NCBI RefSeq assembly: GCF_005925345.1 | Contig: NZ_SSHJ01000008.1 | Coordinates: forward strand, 124,001 to 188,000 | Source of the DNA: Pedobacter ureilyticus | Lineage (GTDB): Bacteria; Bacteroidota; Bacteroidia; Sphingobacteriales; Sphingobacteriaceae | Direction of reading: 5' to 3' | DNA length: 64,000 bases | In this document: positions 12,301-61,393 of the stretch, piece by piece | Numbering within the stretch: the first letter of the stretch is position 1 | Layout of the letters: every line of letters begins with the position of its first letter | Position numbers and translations under genes: made by a program | Notes under the pieces: model-generated | What the model was told of the DNA's origin: nothing | Databases searched by the model: none | Seen by the model: the letters and a program-made list of their open reading frames with translations, nothing else

Positions 12301-13038
12301 AATGAGTTGAACGAGCGTATGGAATTGGCTCAAAACATCTCTTCGATGGTGTTATCGCTGCGCAAGAAAATGAGTATCAATGTTCGTCAGCCTTTAGCAA
12401 AAGTGTTGATTCCGGTTTTAGATGATACCTTTAAAAACAAGGTAGAATTAGTGAAGGATTTGATCCTTTCTGAAACCAATATTAAAGAAATTTCATACAT
12501 TACCGACACTGCTGGTTTCATCAAGAAAAAGGTTAAACCAAACTTTAAAGCTTTAGGCGCTAAAGTAGGCAAGGATATGAAGTTGGTAACGGAAGTCATC
12601 AACAAAATGAGCCAAGAAGAACTTGCTCAGTTTGAAAAAGAGGGCACTTTCTCTATACTCAATACTCCATACTCAATACTTTTGAGTGATGTAGAAATTA
12701 TTGCAGAAGACATCCCAGGATGGCAGGTAACTAATATGGGCAACTTAACCGTGGCCTTGGATATCAATATCACTACCGAGCTTAAACAAGAAGGTTTATC
12801 TCGTGAGTTGATTAATCGTATCCAAAACTTAAGAAAAGAATTGAATTTTGAAGTTACCGATAGGATAACGGTAAGTTTACAACAACATAATTTAATTGTA
12901 GATGCGGTAGCAAAAAACAAAACCTACATTTGCAACGAAATTTTAGCTAATGATATTTTGTTAACAGAAAGCATATCGAACGGAAACAAAATCATCATAG
13001 AAGATGTTGAATTGGATATTTTGATTACCAAATTATAA
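9373..13038 (+). CDS. ileS: isoleucine--tRNA ligase (with an extra insertion)
   Basis: Class I synthetase, 1221 residues from the ATG at 9373 (a TTG lies one codon earlier). Visible: the HIGH-type motif in GMPGIHHV (about residues 52-59), the editing domain with WTTTPWTLPSNTAL, the W-rich GTPLPIWRT segment, the conserved DVWFDSGAMPYAQWH, and KMSKR at about 771-775. Residues about 545-639 (RTRRNN... to ...WANGT) form an extra, AT-rich, Lys/Glu-rich segment between CIGSVSEL and FDLHRPY, where relatives as I know them have only a short linker. Residues near 1094-1103 are encoded by four tandem 7-nt repeats. Likely an operon with the following DksA-like gene and lspA. Confidence 0.95.
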   Translation: MYREFKQLELAKIGEEILAFWKAQNIFDKSIDSRPKSKPFTFYEGPPSANGMPGIHHVMARAIKDIFCRYKTLKGYQVKRKGGWDTHGLPIELAVEKKLGITKEDIGKKISVDEYNAACKEEVMRYTDVWNDLTEKMGYWVDLQNPYVTYQNEYIETLWWILKQLYNKGLLYKGYTIQPYSPAAGTGLSSHELNQPGTYRDVSDTTIVAQFKAKAETLPSFLQGFGAVDILAWTTTPWTLPSNTALTVGPKIDYVLVKTFNQYTFEPSNVVLAKALVGKQFGGKFFLAEDETAFANYKAEDKKIPYQILAECKGEDLVGIRYEQLLPLATPYQNAADAFRVIAGDFVTTEDGTGIVHTAPTFGADDARVAKLATPEIPPMLILDDKGNAVPLVDLQGKFVASLGEFGGKYVKNEYYAEGTAPEKSVDVEIAIRLKEENKAFKVEKYVHSYPHCWRTDKPVLYYPLDSWFIKTTAVKEKMADLNKTINWKPEATGTGRFGNWLENLVDWNLSRSRYWGTPLPIWRTKTSFDDELEICIGSVSELRTRRNNVKLEDGYLADYFAISCNLEQFETDFKNGEEFISDSLSLAKEVFLERLKKENKIDSSFFYDYLNSIVPEKVSENLERYTILLSEKWANGTFDLHRPYIDDVFIIKKRYLNYSGAIDDNQYVFFKRETDLIDVWFDSGAMPYAQWHFPFENKEEFENAYPADFIAEGVDQTRGWFFTLHAIAVMLSESSDEIKAINERVNNPGIAFKNVVSNGLVLDKNGAKMSKRLGNAVDPFSTIDTYSADATRWYMISNASPWDNLKFNLEGLDEVRRKFFGTLYNTYSFFALYANIDKFEIDLNNQTPVAQRSELDRWILSLLQNLIAEVDEAYNTYEPTKAARAIQNFVDEHLSNWYIRLSRRRFWKGEMTADKKAAYETLYTCLVNIAQLMSPVAPFFSDWLYQNLTEILPAEAKSESVHLTILPDADQTLVDNELNERMELAQNISSMVLSLRKKMSINVRQPLAKVLIPVLDDTFKNKVELVKDLILSETNIKEISYITDTAGFIKKKVKPNFKALGAKVGKDMKLVTEVINKMSQEELAQFEKEGTFSILNTPYSILLSDVEIIAEDIPGWQVTNMGNLTVALDINITTELKQEGLSRELINRIQNLRKELNFEVTDRITVSLQQHNLIVDAVAKNKTYICNEILANDILLTESISNGNKIIIEDVELDILITKL
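12652..12679 (+). repeat. four tandem 7-nt repeats inside ileS
   Basis: Four contiguous units of consensus TCNATAC in exact 7-nt phase, encoding part of SILNTPYSIL. The same unit family (TYRATAC) forms the six-copy array just upstream of rsmI at 19246-19287. Confidence 0.85.
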
Positions 13039-19203: not shown

Positions 19204-19231
19204 AGTTTTCAGTTTTCAGTTGGCAGTTTTC
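19204..19231 (+). repeat. four tandem 7-nt repeats (AGTTTTC)
   Basis: Units AGTTTTC, AGTTTTC, AGTTGGC, AGTTTTC in exact phase. Overlaps the expected -33 region of serS. Confidence 0.9.
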
Positions 19232-19245
19232 AATAGGGGCCAATC

Positions 19246-19287
19246 TTGATACTTGATACTTGATACTCAATACTCGATACTCGATAC
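19246..19287 (+). repeat. six tandem 7-nt repeats (TYRATAC) abutting rsmI
   Basis: Six contiguous units (TTGATAC three times, TCAATAC, TCGATAC twice) end one base before the rsmI start codon. A longer reading of rsmI would translate this array (MILDTQYSILDT), which is why that start was rejected. The same unit type occurs inside ileS. Confidence 0.92.
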
Positions 19288-19288
19288 T

Positions 19289-20033: not shown

Positions 20034-20118
20034 CGTCATCCTGAATTTATTTCAGGATCAGCTAGTATATTAAATAGAAAACCTGTAGAACTGATGCTGA
20101 ACTAAATTCAGCATGACG
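20034..20118. repeat. paired-hairpin repeat, left copy beside GIY-YIG pseudogene
   Basis: 85 bp with outer ends cgtcat/atgacg. Two inner hairpins: cctgaa(tttat)ttcagg and tgctgaa(ctaaa)ttcagca. Closely matches the right copy at 20440-20522, in the same orientation. Confidence 0.88.
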
Positions 20119-20433: not shown

Positions 20434-20439
20434 CACTGT

Positions 20440-20522
20440 CGTCATCCTGAATTTATTTCAGGATCGGCTATATAGATATAGTAAACTTGCAAAACTGATG
20501 CTGAACTAAATTCAGCATGACG
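20440..20522. repeat. paired-hairpin repeat, right copy beside GIY-YIG pseudogene
   Basis: 83 bp, same ends and the same two inner hairpins as the copy at 20034-20118; differences lie mainly in the 30-bp centre. Confidence 0.88.
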
Positions 20523-20560
20523 AAACGCCTAATTAGCATTAGAATAATAAAAAGAAAACC

Positions 20561-28721: not shown

Positions 28722-29435
28722 TTAAAAAGATAGCTTTACCAACTTCTCCCCCTCCAAAACAGGAATAGTTGCACACACATCCAATTTCAAACAAAACTGT
28801 ACATCTTCTTCGATATTCAACTTCACTAGACGATGGTTATGAGAAGATTTTTTGAGGTATCCGCGTAGATCGGTTTTGGCCAATTGATACATATCTAAAG
28901 CAGCTACACTAGAATCGTCGCCAACTGTAAAATCATTTTGAAGTTGCTCCACTACTGCCCCTGCAAACAAAGTATCTTCTAAATTGAAATTATCTTTCCA
29001 GCCTGCGCAGAGCAGTAACACGTCTTTATTTTCTTTCTTCAAATAATTGCAAACAGAACTTAGATTAAGAAAGGAGCCTACAATTACTTGATGCGCACGC
29101 TCTTGTGCCAAGTGCATGGCTTTGGTACCGTTGGTGGTAGTTAACACGATGGTTTCTCCGGCTACTTTTTCGACAGTATAAGAAAAGGGCGAATTACCAA
29201 AATCATAACCCTCAACTACCTCTCCGTTACGTTCAGCAGCCAGCAAATAACCTTTATCAGCATAGTTAAGGCAATCTTCCACATTCATTACCGGAATAAT
29301 TGCTTCAGCACCATTTTCGATACCGTAAGTGATAGAAGAAGTTGCCCTCAGAATATCTATAACAACAACAATACTATTTTCGATAGCATATAAATCTAAC
29401 AGAGCGGGCGTTAAACAAACTTCTATTTTAGGCAT
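28722..29435 (-). CDS. comB: 2-phosphosulfolactate phosphatase family protein (ComB-like)
   Basis: 237 residues. Family segments: VVIDILRATSSITYGIENGA near 24-43 (with the metal-binding region), LLAAERNGEVVEGYDFGNSP, TIVLTTTNGTKAM and VLLLCAGWKDNFNLEDTLFAGA. ComB hydrolyses 2-phosphosulfolactate in coenzyme M synthesis in archaea; in bacteria without coenzyme M the substrate is unclear, and the symbol is by homology only. It lies downstream of gcvT, separated by a hairpin made of heptamer arrays. Confidence 0.85.
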   Translation of the reverse strand: MPKIEVCLTPALLDLYAIENSIVVVIDILRATSSITYGIENGAEAIIPVMNVEDCLNYADKGYLLAAERNGEVVEGYDFGNSPFSYTVEKVAGETIVLTTTNGTKAMHLAQERAHQVIVGSFLNLSSVCNYLKKENKDVLLLCAGWKDNFNLEDTLFAGAVVEQLQNDFTVGDDSSVAALDMYQLAKTDLRGYLKKSSHNHRLVKLNIEEDVQFCLKLDVCATIPVLEGEKLVKLSF

Positions 29436-29442
29436 CGGAGTG

Positions 29443-29517
29443 GGTTATGAGTTATGAGTTACAGGTTATGAGATAAAAGCTTAGCCTCGCAACTCAAAAC
29501 CTGTAACTCGTAACCTT
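29443..29517. repeat. facing heptamer arrays between gcvT and comB
   Basis: Left array 29443-29470: four 7-nt units (GGTTATG, AGTTATG, AGTTACA, GGTTATG). Right array 29490-29517: four complementary-type units (for example AACCTGT, AACTCGT). A 17-base piece of the left matches the reverse complement of the right with one mismatch, so RNA would fold into a hairpin with about a 20-nt loop. The right array runs into the gcvT stop codon. Confidence 0.88.
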
Positions 29518-33948: not shown

Positions 33949-34012
33949 TGTCATTCTGAGCACAGCGAAGAATCTGTTTGACTAATAGATTCCTCTTATC
34001 GTTGGAATGACA
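33949..34012. repeat. palindromic dispersed repeat between thrA and thrB
   Basis: 64-bp element with inverted ends tgtcatt(c)/(g)aatgaca and inner gaagaatct/agattcctc. Lies within the operon, so it would form a hairpin in the thr mRNA. Confidence 0.8.
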
Positions 34013-34039
34013 GAAAGCTTTAAATTAAAAGAAAACAAA

Positions 34040-35038
34040 ATGTTAAACAATATAAATAACGAAACATTAGCTAAGCAACCTGAAAAGAAAGCCCCCTTTG
34101 GGGCTGTGGGGGCTGAGATAAAAGTTTTCGCCCCAGCAACTGTAGCCAACGTAGTATGCGGATTTGATGTACTAGGCTTTGCCGTAAACGCTCCCGGCGA
34201 TGAGGTGGTAATGCGTTTAGTGGGAGAACCTGGTGTGCGCCTATTAAAAATCACTGGCGACGAAGGGAAACTTCCGCTAAATAGCGATAAAAATACCGTT
34301 AGCGCATCGGTAAAACATTATCTATCACACATTGGCAGAGAAGATGTTGGTGTGGAAATAGAACTGCATAAAAAAATGCCTATTGGTAGTGGATTGGGTT
34401 CTAGCTCGGCAAGTACTGTAGCAGGCTTGTACGCTATTAACCAATTGATGGGAAATTTGCTAACAGCTAAAGAACTGGTTCCGTTTGCCATGAAAGGCGA
34501 AGAAATTGCCTGCGGTTATGGGCATGCAGATAATGTAGCGCCCGCAATTATGGGCGGTTTTGTGTTAGTGCGCAGTTACGAGCCTTTGGATGTAATTTCC
34601 CTTCCCGTTCCTGATGGCATGTTTGCCGCCATTGTATACCCAGAGGTAGATGTGCCAACCAAAGATGCTCGCCAAATGATCCGTGCTAAGGTGGCTTTAA
34701 AAGATGCCGTTACCCAATGGGGAAATGTGGCTGGTTTGGTAAGCGGATTGTTTTTAAATGATATGGATTTGGTTGGCCGCAGCATGAAAGATGTTTTAGT
34801 AGAGCCTACTCGTTCTATTCTTATCCCAGATTTTGAGATATTACGCAAACTAGCGATGGAGAACGGTGCTGTAGGTTTCGGGATTTCTGGCTCTGGCCCT
34901 TCGGTTTTTGCCTTAACCAAAGATGAAGAAAGTGCGAAGAAAATCACCAAAGCCCAACAAATGCACTTGCATCAAATTAATATTAAAAGTCAAGCTTACG
35001 TTTCTGAAGTAAATACTGAAGGACCGAGAACGTTATAA
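34040..35038 (+). CDS. thrB: homoserine kinase
   Basis: 332 residues from the ATG at 34040; an earlier start at 34007 would lie in the palindromic repeat. The GHMP-kinase core begins with KVFAPATVANVVCGFDVLGFAV (about 30-50); the ATP loop is PIGSGLGSSSAS; a C-terminal GFGISGSGPSVFAL matches the third GHMP motif. It phosphorylates homoserine. The first about 28 residues exceed the usual start and are partly encoded by a G/C-block repeat (34091-34113). The stop codon lies in a heptamer array. Confidence 0.95.
   Translation: MLNNINNETLAKQPEKKAPFGAVGAEIKVFAPATVANVVCGFDVLGFAVNAPGDEVVMRLVGEPGVRLLKITGDEGKLPLNSDKNTVSASVKHYLSHIGREDVGVEIELHKKMPIGSGLGSSSASTVAGLYAINQLMGNLLTAKELVPFAMKGEEIACGYGHADNVAPAIMGGFVLVRSYEPLDVISLPVPDGMFAAIVYPEVDVPTKDARQMIRAKVALKDAVTQWGNVAGLVSGLFLNDMDLVGRSMKDVLVEPTRSILIPDFEILRKLAMENGAVGFGISGSGPSVFALTKDEESAKKITKAQQMHLHQINIKSQAYVSEVNTEGPRTL
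34091..34113 (+). repeat. G/C-block repeat inside the thrB N-terminus
   Basis: gcccccttt/ggggctgt/gggggc pattern, same type as the intergenic repeat at 23674-23696; encodes part of KKAPFGAVGAE. Confidence 0.75.
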
Positions 35039-35109
35039 GTTATACGTATTACGTTATACGTTTTGTATGTCGGCTGTTGATGACGTAAAACTTATAACGT
35101 AAAACTTAA
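35032..35109. repeat. facing heptamer arrays between thrB and thrC
   Basis: Left array 35032-35059: GTTATAA, GTTATAC, GTATTAC, GTTATAC. Right array 35082-35109: GACGTAA, AACTTAT, AACGTAA, AACTTAA. A 16-base piece of the left matches the reverse complement of the right with one mismatch. The 22-nt spacer would form the loop. The first unit contains the thrB stop codon. Confidence 0.9.
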
Positions 35110-35119
35110 TACTCGCAAA

Positions 35120-38007: not shown

Positions 38008-38010
38008 ACA

Positions 38011-38145
38011 GGGATTAGGTGTTAGGGATCAGGTGTCAGGCTGAGTGGCAAAACTGTAGCGAGCAGCTATTTGTTTAGCTAAACGAACCTTAAACAGATC
38101 TAAAGGTTCAAAATAAAACTGTCTCCTGATTTCTGACGACTGATT
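38011..38145. repeat. facing heptamer arrays downstream of the LutB-like gene
   Basis: Left array 38011-38038: GGGATTA, GGTGTTA, GGGATCA, GGTGTCA. Right array about 38119-38145 has complementary-type units (TGTCTCC, TGATTTC, TGACGAC, TGATTAG), less regular. The spacer is about 80 nt, longer than in the other pairs. Confidence 0.75.
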
Positions 38146-38185
38146 AGTTAATTACTATATTTACGGTAAACCAATATCAACCTTT

Positions 38186-41302: not shown

Positions 41303-41373
41303 TGAATGATGACTAATTTTTGAATGATTGAATATCCTTACAGCAATTCAACAATGAAGCAATATAGCAATTT
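41303..41373. repeat. 8-nt repeat arrays between feoB and the SprT-like gene
   Basis: 41342-41373 is four 8-nt units (AGCAATTC, AACAATGA, AGCAATAT, AGCAATTT), the last reaching into the feoB stop codon. 41303-41335 carries tgaatgat-type words that read on the opposite strand as a second 8-nt array, so the pair is again face to face. Confidence 0.75.
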
Positions 41374-43495
41374 ACTTCAACAACTGATAAGCAATCAGCG
41401 CCGCTAGATAAGCCATTACCGTCATATAAACCAATTGGATAATTGGCCATTTCCACGATTTGGTTTCTCTATAAACAATGGCAACTGTACTCATACACTG
41501 CATGGCAAAAGCATAAAATAACATTAACGATAAGGCCGTTGCAAAGGTGAATATGGGCAAACCAGTTTCCGGATTTTTTGCAGCAGCAATTTTATCGCGT
41601 AACCGCAATTCACCATTTTCGTCATCTACACCTTCTACGCTATAAATGGTAGCCATAGTGCCAACAAAAGCCTCTCGAGCGGCAAATGAAGTAATTAAGG
41701 CAATACCAATTTTCCAATCGTAGCCCAAAGGTTTAATGGCCGGCTCTATAGATTTACCAATAATTCCGGCGTATGAGTTCTCCAACTTCTCTGCAGATCT
41801 ATCTCTTTCTAACGAAGCCAACTGCACGGTATCTGTAGATGTAGCTTCTATCTTATCGTATTTGACATCAATGGCTTCAAAGCGTGAGCTAGGACCATAA
41901 GTAGACATCACCCATAAAATGATTGAAATAGCAATGATGACCTTACCAGCCTCGATTACAAAAGTCTTAGACTTCTCGTACATCGTATACAAAACATTGC
42001 TCCAACGCGGCATGCGGTACACCGGCAGTTCCATAATAAAATACGATCGTTCTTTAGCCTTAATAATAAATTTGAATACCAAAGCCACTAAAATAGCTGC
42101 AATGATACTAATGAAGTACATAGCCATCAGCGTTAAACCTTGAAGACTAAAGAAACCCCATACTTTTTCATCTGGCACTACCAATGAAATCAATAAGGTA
42201 TAAACTGGCAACCTTGCCGAACAGCTTACTAAAGGCGTTACCATAATGGTAATGATCCGGTCTTTCCAGCTTTCGATATTACGAGCACTCATAATAGACG
42301 GCACCGCACAGGCTATCCCGCCAATCATTGGCACAACAGATTTTCCGCTTAGCCCAAACTTACGCATGATTTTATCCATCATGAAAGTAACACGGGCCAT
42401 GTAACCCGTATCTTCTAAAATGGAAATGAGCGCAAATAAGATGGCAATTTGAGGGATAAAAATCACAATTCCACCTAAACCAGCAACTACACCATCCAAT
42501 AGCAAATCAGTAAGCACACCCGCCGGCAAATATTCATGTCCCCATTCAGTTAATTTTGCAAAAGTACCTTCAATTAAATCCATCGGCAACGAAGACCAAG
42601 AGAAAATAGCATTAAAGATGAAGAAGAGGATAAAGAAGAAAATAACGAAGCCCCAAACTTTGTGCGTTAATATAGAATCGAGTTTATCCGTAACGGTAAA
42701 TTTCTTTGCTGCTCCGGTATCGGTTACCACATCGGTTAATACTTTACTTAAATGCTTATATCTGGCAACGGTTTCCTCACCTTGTAATTTGGTGGTATCA
42801 AAACCCGTGCTTACCTCAATAGCTTCAATTTCTTTTTGTTCCTTTTGGGTAAAAAAAGCCAAATGTTCGTGTTGGTGTAATACCTGCAGCGCAAAATAAT
42901 CGTTATCTGTAGTTATTTTTTGCTTAATCGCCTCTATGGCTTGTGGAGCGAAATCTTTAGCCAATATGCTACTGGTTTGCGTAGCAACAGTAGTAGTTTG
43001 AGCAATAGCCTGCTTAAGTTCGGTTAATCCTTCTCCTTTTCTTGCCGAGATGTTTACCACCTGTACGCCTAAACGCTCAGCGAGTTTATCTATATCGATA
43101 TTGATGCCCTCTTTCTTAGCCATATCGGCCATGTTAAGCACCAATAGCATGGGTATACCCAAATCAGCAACTTGCGAGAACAGCAAAAGATTACGGCGTA
43201 AATTGGTAGAATCTGCTACCAGTACGATCATATCTGGATGGCTTGCATTGTTTTTATCCGCAAGCACCTGAAAAACGATGCTTTCGTCTTTACTTTTTGG
43301 GTAAAGGCTATAAGTACCTGGCAAGTCAATAATCTCGGCAGTTTTACCTGATGGAAGCTTGCAGTAACCCGTTTTTTTATCAACGGTAATACCTGGAAAG
43401 TTTCCAATTTTTTGATTTAATCCGGTTAGGAGGTTAAATAGGGTAGACTTTCCTGTATTCGGATTTCCAACTAATGCTACTTTTAAATCGGCCAA
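41372..43495 (-). CDS. feoB: ferrous iron transport protein B
   Basis: 707 residues. N-terminal G domain with G1 GNPNTGKSTLFN, G3 DLPGTYSLYP and G4 NMAD, then a GDI-like linker and a membrane part of about eight to nine helices with two Gate regions (for example VPMIGGIACAVPSIMSARN, and RLPVYTLLISLVVPD). It imports Fe2+ across the inner membrane. feoA lies 4 bases upstream, so the two are one operon. No Fur box was identified upstream. Confidence 0.97.
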   Translation of the reverse strand: MADLKVALVGNPNTGKSTLFNLLTGLNQKIGNFPGITVDKKTGYCKLPSGKTAEIIDLPGTYSLYPKSKDESIVFQVLADKNNASHPDMIVLVADSTNLRRNLLLFSQVADLGIPMLLVLNMADMAKKEGINIDIDKLAERLGVQVVNISARKGEGLTELKQAIAQTTTVATQTSSILAKDFAPQAIEAIKQKITTDNDYFALQVLHQHEHLAFFTQKEQKEIEAIEVSTGFDTTKLQGEETVARYKHLSKVLTDVVTDTGAAKKFTVTDKLDSILTHKVWGFVIFFFILFFIFNAIFSWSSLPMDLIEGTFAKLTEWGHEYLPAGVLTDLLLDGVVAGLGGIVIFIPQIAILFALISILEDTGYMARVTFMMDKIMRKFGLSGKSVVPMIGGIACAVPSIMSARNIESWKDRIITIMVTPLVSCSARLPVYTLLISLVVPDEKVWGFFSLQGLTLMAMYFISIIAAILVALVFKFIIKAKERSYFIMELPVYRMPRWSNVLYTMYEKSKTFVIEAGKVIIAISIILWVMSTYGPSSRFEAIDVKYDKIEATSTDTVQLASLERDRSAEKLENSYAGIIGKSIEPAIKPLGYDWKIGIALITSFAAREAFVGTMATIYSVEGVDDENGELRLRDKIAAAKNPETGLPIFTFATALSLMLFYAFAMQCMSTVAIVYRETKSWKWPIIQLVYMTVMAYLAALIAYQLLK

Positions 43496-59969: not shown

Positions 59970-61393
59970 TTAGAGTTTAAAAAACTATATGATAAATTGA
60001 GCAAAGCTTGCTCGTTAAAATGTTTGGTCATTAATTGCATACTTAACGGCAAACCCGCTTGGTTATTGCCTAAGGGTAAAGCTACTGCCGGAATACCTGC
60101 TAAAGATGCCAATACGGTATAAATATCTGCCATGTACATTACCAAGGGGTCTTGCACATTTTCACCAATTTTAAAAGCTGGGGTGGGTGCCACTGGACTA
60201 ATTAAAACATCATTGTCTTTTAACAAAGCTTCTACTCGCTCCCTAATTAATCGACGAACCTTTTGTGCTTTTTGATAATAAGCATCATAATATCCGGCGC
60301 TTAACACAAAAGCACCTAACATGATACGCCGCTTAACTTCTTCTCCAAAACCTTCGGCTCTTGAGCTTTTGTACAGTTGGTTTAGGCTTTGTGCTTGCGT
60401 GTTACGGTATCCATAATGTACGCCATCGTAACGCGACAGGTTTGACGAGGCTTCGGCTGTAGTGAGAATATAGTAGGTTGGCACTAAATACTCCAACAAA
60501 TCGAAAGAAACATAAGTTACTTCGTGACCAGCAGCCTTAAATTTATCGAGCGCCAACAGAATGGCTGTTTTAGTTTCAGGATCTAGCGCTTCACTTTCTA
60601 TCGTTTCTTTTAGTACAGCTATTCTGAGATTTGGGATTTGAGATTTGAGATTTGAGCTGTAAGACGGCACTGGTTGTTGCGAAACTGTACTATCGTTTTC
60701 ATCGGCGCCGGCCAGCACTTCTAACAGTAAAGCGGCATCAGTAACCGATGAAGTTAGTGTACCCACCTGATCAAAAGAAGAAGCATAAGCAATTACACCA
60801 TAGCGAGAAATGCGCCCGTAAGTTGGCTTAAAACCAATGTTGCCACAAAATGCCGCAGGTTGGCGAACTGAACCACCTGTATCGGTACCTAAAGCCGCTA
60901 GACATAGATCTGCCTGCACGGCAACTGCCGAACCTCCAGATGAACCACCTGCAACACGCTCTTCATCGGCTGCATTTTTTACCGTACCGAAATATGAAGT
61001 TTCGTTAGAACCGCCCATGGCAAACTCATCGCAATTTAAACGGCCAATAATAATGGCATCTTCGGCAAGCAAACGCTTAACTACCGTAGAGGAGTAGGGA
61101 GAAACGAAACCATCTAACATTTTAGAAGAAGCAGTTACCACATGGCCCTCGTAGCAAATATTATCTTTAATCCCGATAACCATGCCCGCCAATTTACCTG
61201 CCGAACCGTGATCAAGTTTAGCTTGAATTTCTTCAGCTTGCTTTTTTGCAGAATCAAAAAACACCTCATTAAATGCATTGAGGTGTTGATGCTTTTCTAT
61301 TTGCTGAAAATAGTAAGTAATAAGTTCTTTTAAAGTAAGCTGCTTTTGCGCAAGTTCTCCCTGTATCTCTGTTAAAGAGCTGTATTTCTTCAA
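59948..61393 (-). CDS. gatA: Asp-tRNA(Asn)/Glu-tRNA(Gln) amidotransferase subunit A
   Basis: 481 residues of the amidase-signature family: catalytic Lys in GIKDNICYEG (about 76), cis-Ser and nucleophile Ser in AGGSSGGSAVAVQ and GTDTGGSVRQPAAFCG. With GatB and GatC it transamidates misacylated tRNA; gatB and gatC are not adjacent. Two segments are made from repeats: SSNLKSQIPNLR (residues about 248-259), encoded by four TGRGATT heptamers, and the C-terminal tail. Next gene upstream is a TatA-like gene. Confidence 0.96.
   Translation of the reverse strand: MKKYSSLTEIQGELAQKQLTLKELITYYFQQIEKHQHLNAFNEVFFDSAKKQAEEIQAKLDHGSAGKLAGMVIGIKDNICYEGHVVTASSKMLDGFVSPYSSTVVKRLLAEDAIIIGRLNCDEFAMGGSNETSYFGTVKNAADEERVAGGSSGGSAVAVQADLCLAALGTDTGGSVRQPAAFCGNIGFKPTYGRISRYGVIAYASSFDQVGTLTSSVTDAALLLEVLAGADENDSTVSQQPVPSYSSNLKSQIPNLRIAVLKETIESEALDPETKTAILLALDKFKAAGHEVTYVSFDLLEYLVPTYYILTTAEASSNLSRYDGVHYGYRNTQAQSLNQLYKSSRAEGFGEEVKRRIMLGAFVLSAGYYDAYYQKAQKVRRLIRERVEALLKDNDVLISPVAPTPAFKIGENVQDPLVMYMADIYTVLASLAGIPAVALPLGNNQAGLPLSMQLMTKHFNEQALLNLSYSFLNSNVISNEV
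60625..60652. repeat. four tandem 7-nt repeats inside gatA
   Basis: Units TGAGATT, TGGGATT, TGAGATT, TGAGATT in exact phase (plus strand); a fifth partial unit follows. Encodes part of SNLKSQIPNL on the minus strand. Confidence 0.88.

Follow-up and report, generated by a model that had tools for sequence, protein, structure and literature searches.

Two facing arrays of 7-nt units form a hairpin between gcvT and comB in the stretch of Pedobacter DNA analysed here, which is 64,000 nt long and is called the window below. This hairpin and its counterparts in the window are probably ORF-less forms, internally deleted or decayed, of a small dispersed element that carries a gene for a 23S rRNA intervening-sequence protein (IVP; PF05635/TIGR02436, named "four helix bundle protein" by NCBI). 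The full element would consist of a 5' array of a few 7- or 8-nt units, rich in G, T and A and poor in C, followed by an IVP gene of ∼110-140 codons and by an opposed, complementary 3' array. The tie of the arrays to the IVP gene family is the main point that goes beyond the preliminary description of this DNA, which had been made from the sequence alone.

The features at the gcvT-comB junction, in window coordinates, are:

28722..29435, minus strand: comB-like 2-phosphosulpholactate phosphatase gene (PF04029), downstream of the junction and co-directional with gcvT
29443..29472, no strand assigned: left array, four 7-nt units (GGTTATG/GAGTTAT type), G/T-rich on the plus strand, reported by TRF with period 7 at 29444-29472
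29473..29492, no strand assigned: hairpin loop of 20 nt, without an ORF
29493..29515, no strand assigned: right array, opposed (CTCAAAACCTGTAACTCGTAACC), its end adjoining the gcvT stop codon
29516..30598, minus strand: gcvT, glycine cleavage T protein gene (PF01571, GCV_T; PF08669), upstream of the junction

Pfam confirms the identities of both genes, and the nearest named kin of this gcvT are from Pedobacter and Nubsella. The two arrays together occupy 29443-29515 of the gap, and the paired arms, 29451-29472 and 29493-29514, are 22 nt each, 91% complementary and separated by a spacer of 20 nt. The fold is more stable than expected (z -5.9 on the plus strand and -6.8 on the minus strand, with none of 200 shuffles equally stable), and with arms paired to this extent the facing arrays and their hairpin, as first described, are real. 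The right array had been said to reach the gcvT stop, and it does, ending at 29515 where the gcvT ORF begins at 29516. The spacer of about 20 nt also stands, but the stem, which had been put at 17 bases with one mismatch, is 22 nt with two. No Rfam family was found at the site, and the only Rfam matches in the whole window were two tRNA genes on the minus strand (1894-1968 and 2077-2151), which have equal scores and lie 183 bases apart. A genome search (4.98 Mb in 52 contigs) returned sister hairpins that share its GTTAYGN unit on C4, C18 and C8, each of which begins ∼10 bases or less from a stop codon.

A strong stem between co-directional genes, with TTATTTTTT coming after it on the plus strand, would suit a selected cis-regulatory or processing hairpin, such as an attenuator, an mRNA stabiliser or a terminator, in which the arrays are incidental. 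However, an intrinsic terminator has its T-run after the stem in the direction of transcription, and none follows the stem on the gcvT-to-comB strand; the run lies on the other strand only. The view that this is not a plain terminator therefore stands, and the comparison with relatives, given below, weighs further against a regulatory role.

The same architecture had been said to recur in the window at 35032-35109 and, less perfectly, at 38011-38145 and 41303-41373. The features at these sites are:

34007-35038: GHMP kinase ORF, thrB-like, preceding a threonine-synthase-like gene (35120)
35030..35064, no strand assigned: second hairpin, left array (GTTATAC units), overlapping the end of the GHMP kinase ORF
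35078..35112, no strand assigned: second hairpin, opposed array in a 14-nt register (ACGTAAAACTTATA)
38009..38040, no strand assigned: third candidate, with a longer loop, left array (GATTAGG/GATCAGG units)
38119..38147, no strand assigned: third candidate, opposed array
41303..41373, no strand assigned: fourth named site, at best a decayed copy

Recurrence at the first of these sites is partly upheld, since 35030-35112 contains an inverted repeat (94% over 18 nt; local self-complementarity z 5.3), but its fold is weak (z -1.8/-1.9). The next site is also a mixed case; arrays are present and the fold of 38008-38150 is stable (z -4.5), but local self-complementarity is not above that of shuffles (z 0.8). 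Recurrence at the last site finds no support, as 41305-41382 folds no more stably than shuffles (z +0.9 and -0.8). We traced the thrB-thrC site in six relatives with IVP genes and in no relative without them; all six have an array score of at least 13 of 18, and a stem was called in three. Elsewhere in the window, heptamer arrays with no clear opposed partner lie within long ORFs at 12651-12680 (CTCAATA) and 60625-60656 (TGAGATT), and two unlike arrays, AGTTTTC and GATACTC, lie side by side at 19204-19288 with no evident mutual stem.

Tandem units of this length are more frequent than expected by chance. A strict array scan of the window returned five arrays at period 7 and none at every other period from 4 to 13. 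When the scan was extended to 464 kb (the window plus 400 kb), there were 10 arrays at period 7, 5 at period 8 and 0-2 at each of the other periods from 4 to 13, with 8, 4 and 5 at the multiples 14, 16 and 21, and the same scan of three shuffles gave 0, 0 and 1 arrays of period 7. Intergenic hairpins in a 1.264-Mb sample behaved similarly, with arms of period 7 in 11, of period 8 in 10, and of each remaining period in the 4-13 range in 1-4, an arm being counted as periodic at an autocorrelation of at least 0.5. The 1-4 hairpins at other periods imply that a few of the period-7/8 hairpins are due to chance. In this sample there are 20 distinct period-7/8 hairpins, of which 17 lie between co-directional genes, 3 between convergent genes and none between divergent ones; one adjoins an IVP gene. 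Since 8-nt units also occur, seven is not a universal unit length. At a separate locus (L021, ∼2834-2897; G000:C1:242834-242897), seven consecutive GGGTTTA units lie between genes, a plant telomere-like heptamer.

The genome that contains the window has 11 PF05635 matches, and opposed 7/8-nt repeats can be seen by eye around all 11 of these IVP genes, least clearly at L172 and L173; polarity is reversed at L173, and the locus L168 is broken. Complementarity between the 220-nt flanks of the 11 genes ranges from 14 to 31 and is at least 18 in 10 of them, compared with a mean of 10.7 and a 99th percentile of 17.6 for 189 control ORFs of similar size, of which 17 reach 14. One of the controls is itself an IVP gene, and among the remaining 188, one reaches 18. 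A strict array rule, by which each of the two flanks had to match 15 of 21 or more with a period of 7 or 8, was passed by 5 of the 11 IVP genes and by 0 of the 188 controls. Together with the period spectrum, these flank controls rule out local drift or chance as the source of the arrays. The full element is thus a PF05635 ORF in the loop of an inverted repeat, as in S23p elements, and the window hairpins have the repeat without the ORF. None of this is located in 23S rRNA (helix 9, 25 or 45), as both the window hairpins and the IVP loci inspected lie between protein-coding genes.

REP or BIME sequences with RAYT genes are short dispersed intergenic palindromes, maybe mobilised in trans. If a Y1 (RAYT) transposase moved a REP-like element, dispersed intergenic palindromes would also result, and the genome has four RAYT genes (PF01797), two of which score 18 and 31 for flank complementarity through other palindromes. 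However, unlike the IVP genes, none of the four has period-7/8 arrays in its flanks, so that a RAYT/REP identity was rejected and we regard it as scarcely credible; the earlier statement that the hairpin is not a REP of the cgtcat type holds. The IVP element further differs from REP/BIME in its tandem 7/8-nt units, which these lack, and in its protein. Separate palindromes of the REP type, CGTCAT, do occur in the window, as a near-identical pair at 20034-20118 and 20439-20523, 89% paired and ∼400 bases apart.

IVP genes are very common, being present in 61 of 80 sampled Bacteroidota genomes, our own included. A set of the 64 best-scoring IVP loci was compiled, from which 4 loci of odd length had been dropped and in which five pairs are one gene under two handles; 58 of the 64 score at least 14 and 45 at least 18. 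The best period in the upstream flanks of this set is 7 in 44 loci and 8 in 10, and in the downstream flanks 7 in 42 and 8 in 10, compared with 23 and 22 of 189 control downstream flanks. A further 19 Bacteroidota loci, taken from the phylum sample, score lower than those of Pedobacter (at least 14 in 15 of 19 and at least 18 in 8 of 19). Outside the Bacteroidota we scored 12 plasmid IVP loci (12 of 43 records found), and 10 of these reach 18, namely eight of the ten cyanobacterial loci and those from Azospirillum and Gemmatirosa. Judged from these sequences, IVP genes are nested in arrays in several phyla, the pattern being present beyond Pedobacter in other Bacteroidota, in Cyanobacteria, in one alphaproteobacterium and in one gemmatimonad. 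Two of the cyanobacteria, Pseudanabaena galeata and Anabaena sp. 90, have array-nested IVP genes between cas6 and cas4 in plasmid CRISPR loci (L285, 601-960; L288, 595-963), and the relevant part of a CRISPR survey lists the IVP domain too (PMC10910872). At such loci the IVP gene is perhaps a passenger.

The sequence of the unit is related to that of the protein. Across 72 of 116 distinct IVP genes, those with arrays on both sides, IVP protein identity correlates with unit similarity (r 0.48), the largest value in 500 permutations being 0.109. After removal of 235 same-site pairs, leaving different-site pairs only, r is 0.22, with 0.158 the largest of 500 permutations. Unit similarity in different-site pairs is 0.12 at less than 40% protein identity and rises to 0.80 at more than 80%, with only 19 such pairs above 60% identity and with mismatched units in some (L166/L228, L182/L216, L268/L277). 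These comparisons indicate that the unit covaries with IVP protein lineage. In 43 non-redundant elements, C makes up 9.9% of the upstream-arm strand, and 78% of the consensus units contain AG, compared with 46% expected; the conserved residues of the protein include Q, R, S and N-I-A-E-G. Both neighbours are co-directional with the IVP gene at 55 of 67 scorable loci (26 of 93 were unscorable, and the argD and metF loci were excluded), compared with 262 of 660 control triplets; the IVP gene is mostly oriented in the sense direction of its neighbours.

At the gcvT-comB junction, 80 named loci from Pedobacter, Mucilaginibacter and their kin were compared with the window. Many relatives have the same architecture directly 3' of the gcvT stop but built from a different unit, namely GTTAYGG, GCGTATT, AAGTTNT, AAGTATC or GAGATTT in Pedobacter, and 8-nt GTCATTRR or GTTCATTA in Mucilaginibacter; the remaining junctions are bare or have other palindromes. 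When the junctions of 50 nt or more are pooled, their autocorrelation has its peaks at 7 (z 16.9) and 8 (z 14.7). At six loci from Mucilaginibacter and related groups (L119, L127, L132, L136, L138, L142) the palindrome is CCCCCT...AGGGGG, so this junction hosts more than one repeat type. The description of a recurring element is thereby borne out, as the arrays exceed chance and the relatives maintain the architecture while the units differ, and not the chance-level recurrence or mere random drift that would have spoken against it. A terminator or conserved regulator is disfavoured, since relatives either lack the hairpin or change its units. The cis-regulatory explanation as a whole is very unlikely; 20 relatives without IVP genes keep the same gene order and have no hairpin, the unit is unconserved between close species, and the architecture is found at unrelated genes as well.

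No IVP ORF was seen between gcvT and comB in any of the 81 junctions, and derivation from a full element at exactly that site is therefore argued by analogy with two other junctions, where different states can be compared. The first, argD-argF', was examined in our own genome and 30 named relatives. In the 11 genomes without IVP genes, argD and argF' overlap by 4 nt (10 genomes) or lie 1 nt apart (one genome). An array-nested IVP gene is present in 8 of the 31, our own included, one of them broken. Two genomes (L074, L095) have relics in which only the 3' end of the IVP gene remains, together with the 3' array, and one (L089) has an ORF-less hairpin of 93 nt that starts like our own IVP copy (TACGTTTTAAGTA then CAGAACT), thus combining the unit and the edge of that copy. 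In nine others the site is occupied by 3' arrays accompanied by REP sequence, by other palindromes or by short spacers. In our own genome the argD stop codon lies within the 5' array of the element (L163, 1460-1490), and the insert may thus have taken the place of the last part of argD.

The second junction, metH-metF, was examined in our own genome and 30 others, and has an IVP element in 14 of 31, of three unit kinds: GTTAYGR (6, one broken), 8-nt TTGTTTGG (6) and AGTATTTAG (2). A further genome (L084) has a deletion relic, with the IVP 3' end beside an array. The 11 genomes without IVP genes have plain spacers of 8-54 nt, and the junction of five others consists of palindromes, of a 3' array or of a short spacer. 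The element in our own genome has the GTTAYGR unit, a kind shared with the window hairpin; the gcvT-comB hairpin itself shares only the unit with an own-genome IVP element (L164). The sister genomes L070 and L071 (support 100/100) differ in the kind of element at metH-metF, as do L075 and L077 (93/83). A single intercistronic site is thus empty in some species and in others contains the full element, a relic left by deletion or a hairpin without the ORF, and sister species differ in the type of element at one site. These states indicate that elements are lost, eroded and replaced at one junction. Among same-site pairs identified by flank similarity, 82 are below 50% protein identity, and at one further site the two members of a close pair, L107 and L113, carry arrays of different units. 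The structure expected of a MITE-like derivative, with the terminal repeats of a gene-bearing element and an internal deletion, is found at related sites (the L089 hairpin compared with our own argD-argF' copy, and the relics L074, L095 and L084) and not in the window copy. At the argD-argF' junctions and in nine close locus pairs, neither a target-site duplication nor a clean recent insertion could be read.

Genomes with and without IVP genes were then set against each other at the gcvT-comB junction. An array score of at least 13 of 18 was obtained in 21 of 31 genomes with IVP genes and in 0 of 20 without, where the highest score was 10. Stem scores gave 26 of 31 and 0 of 20 (Fisher 7e-10), a comparison that amounts to only 1-2 independent contrasts, because the gcvT tree has just about two changes in IVP presence; the junctions of genomes without IVP genes are also shorter. 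The array score is reported beside the stem calls because automatic hairpin calling erred both ways, overlooking L071, L074, L079 and L080 (the L080 junction had been cut too short) and including some hairpins without 7/8-nt units (e.g., L108, L119). Among the Pedobacter kin examined, then, gcvT-comB arrays appear only in genomes that bear IVP genes. Three genomes with a single IVP match (L080, L085, L106) nonetheless have arrays at this junction, which legacy copies would explain and which independence from IVP would explain too.

Wider searches gave results in the same direction, although as genome-level comparisons they are weak. The window element matched 6 of 58 other genomes, all of the same genus and all with IVP genes. 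A ten-unit probe matched 10 of 80 Bacteroidota genomes (our own included) from seven families, all with IVP genes; it matched none of the 19 genomes without them, and 51 genomes with IVP genes were also unmatched. Stretches sampled across the phylum contained 4 period-7/8 arrays in 374 kb from 10 genomes with IVP genes, three of the four lying in one 200-nt stretch of one genome, and 0 in 360 kb from 9 genomes without; period-7/8 hairpins were found in neither group of these stretches.

These comparisons bear on the possibility that the arrays came first, with 7/8-nt repeats produced by polymerase slippage and turned into hairpins by template switching, and the IVP gene a later passenger inserted or captured between them. 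Such an order would fit the excess of ORF-less period-7/8 hairpins (20 in 1.26 Mb, a few by chance) over IVP genes (11 in 4.98 Mb), and the unpaired arrays that start at 12651, 19204 and 60625; Mrazek (2007), cited in PMC4679880, also put forward slippage at 7 nt. On the other hand, no array score of at least 13 of 18 was seen at gcvT-comB in the 20 congeners without IVP genes, the IVP 3' ends beside arrays in L074, L095 and L084 show decay of a full element, and the unit tracks protein lineage even at different sites. We consider an origin of the arrays before the gene unlikely.

The arrays would be the ends of the IVP element and its recognition sites, and the IVP protein may bind the repeated units and be needed for spread both in cis and in trans. 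In mRNA the two arms would pair into a stem that RNase III could cleave, by analogy with the intervening sequence of Coxiella 23S rRNA, and such cutting would account for the tolerance of the insert by operons. Slippage and exchange between arrays could alter unit numbers, erode the ORF and leave hairpins like that at gcvT-comB. No transposase partner of the element was identified. In one variant of this explanation a reverse transcriptase copies the excised IVP RNA back, and IVP plays a part like that of the Avd protein in diversity-generating retroelements. IVP weakly matches the Avd model (E 2.5e-6; 27.7 bits, where the cut-off is 80), the resemblance of PF05635 to Avd is noted in a passage of the literature (PMC10053308), and the sense orientation of the IVP genes would be in keeping with it. 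However, the partner reverse transcriptase that an Avd element should have was not provided by PF00078, which had no match in 12 of the 22 IVP-bearing genomes searched, among them one with 18 IVP matches (G063); a genomic PF00078 reverse transcriptase is thus not required, and other reverse transcriptase families or gaps in draft assemblies could hide one. Overall, the variant seems quite improbable.

Relatives of IVP with solved structures are 2gsc (XCC0516 of X. campestris) and 2rld, and the Xanthomonas relative is described in the pertinent section of PMC4990558 as a homopentamer of four-helix bundles. A broader reading, which we put forward only tentatively and think less likely to be right than wrong, is that of a pan-bacterial class of mobile elements without transposases, in which tandem 7/8-nt units are read by a single small four-helix-bundle protein, probably pentameric, that thereby drives targeted spread into operon junctions. 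About one unit would be read per subunit, each unit usually containing AG. Heptamer hairpins in Bacteroidota, Cyanobacteria and Xanthomonas, and rRNA intervening sequences as well, would all stem from this class. If the window hairpins are rightly read as forms of the IVP element, IVP genes would signal an element whose movement involves no known transposase or reverse transcriptase, and several separately published heptamer repeats would be remains of IVP elements, linked to rRNA intervening sequences. This would also account for hairpins between operon genes that are otherwise read as regulatory signals.

The preliminary description knew of no element built from opposed heptamer arrays, but such arrays had already been published. 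In Xanthomonas, convergent pairs of GGGAATC arrays are reported to number 70 in one genome and 75 in another (Rehm et al., 2015; PMC4692102), and other passages report complementary 7-nt repeats in the P6b stem of Nostoc trnL (PMC4476775). A general link of heptamer arrays to IVP genes was not found in the open-licence PubMed Central literature, and the portions of such texts that name the PF05635/TIGR02436 family do not tie it to repeats. The Xanthomonas GGGAATC and Nostoc GGGGA(C/T)T arrays are treated as G-quadruplex repeats in the sections of PMC4692102 that deal with them, where "four helix" has no occurrence. The Nostoc trnL stem resembles the present elements in its complementary 7-nt repeats, its alternative unit classes and their independent replacement by lineage; unlike them, it lies inside a group I intron and has two unit classes only, and no ORF is mentioned in the part concerned (PMC4476775). 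The TAACTGA repeats of Beggiatoaceae, Cyanobacteria and Bacteroidetes are likewise mostly intergenic heptamer arrays, patchy and in overlapping phyla, but as far as the passages on them go they have a single unit and are nearly all direct, with one inverted case (PMC4679880).

Among the closest known systems is the 23S rRNA intervening sequence of Coxiella burnetii, in which, as here, an ORF of the S23p family lies in sense orientation in an inverted-repeat stem loop. According to the account of it in PMC4990558, RNase III cuts within the stem and the sequence is excised from the transcript, and three tandem heptameric repeats, variable in number between strains, precede the S23p start codon. 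These heptamers, the single hint of a tie between the family and repeats that the literature gave, fit the reading as an IVP element, and are not generalised in the part of PMC4990558 that describes them. The elements described here differ from the 23S rRNA intervening sequences in their host, which is the operon junction, in their many copies per genome and many unit types, and in their ORF-less forms. We therefore class the IVP element with the rRNA intervening-sequence elements, as a form found outside rRNA that has an ORF-less class, to which the window hairpin would belong.
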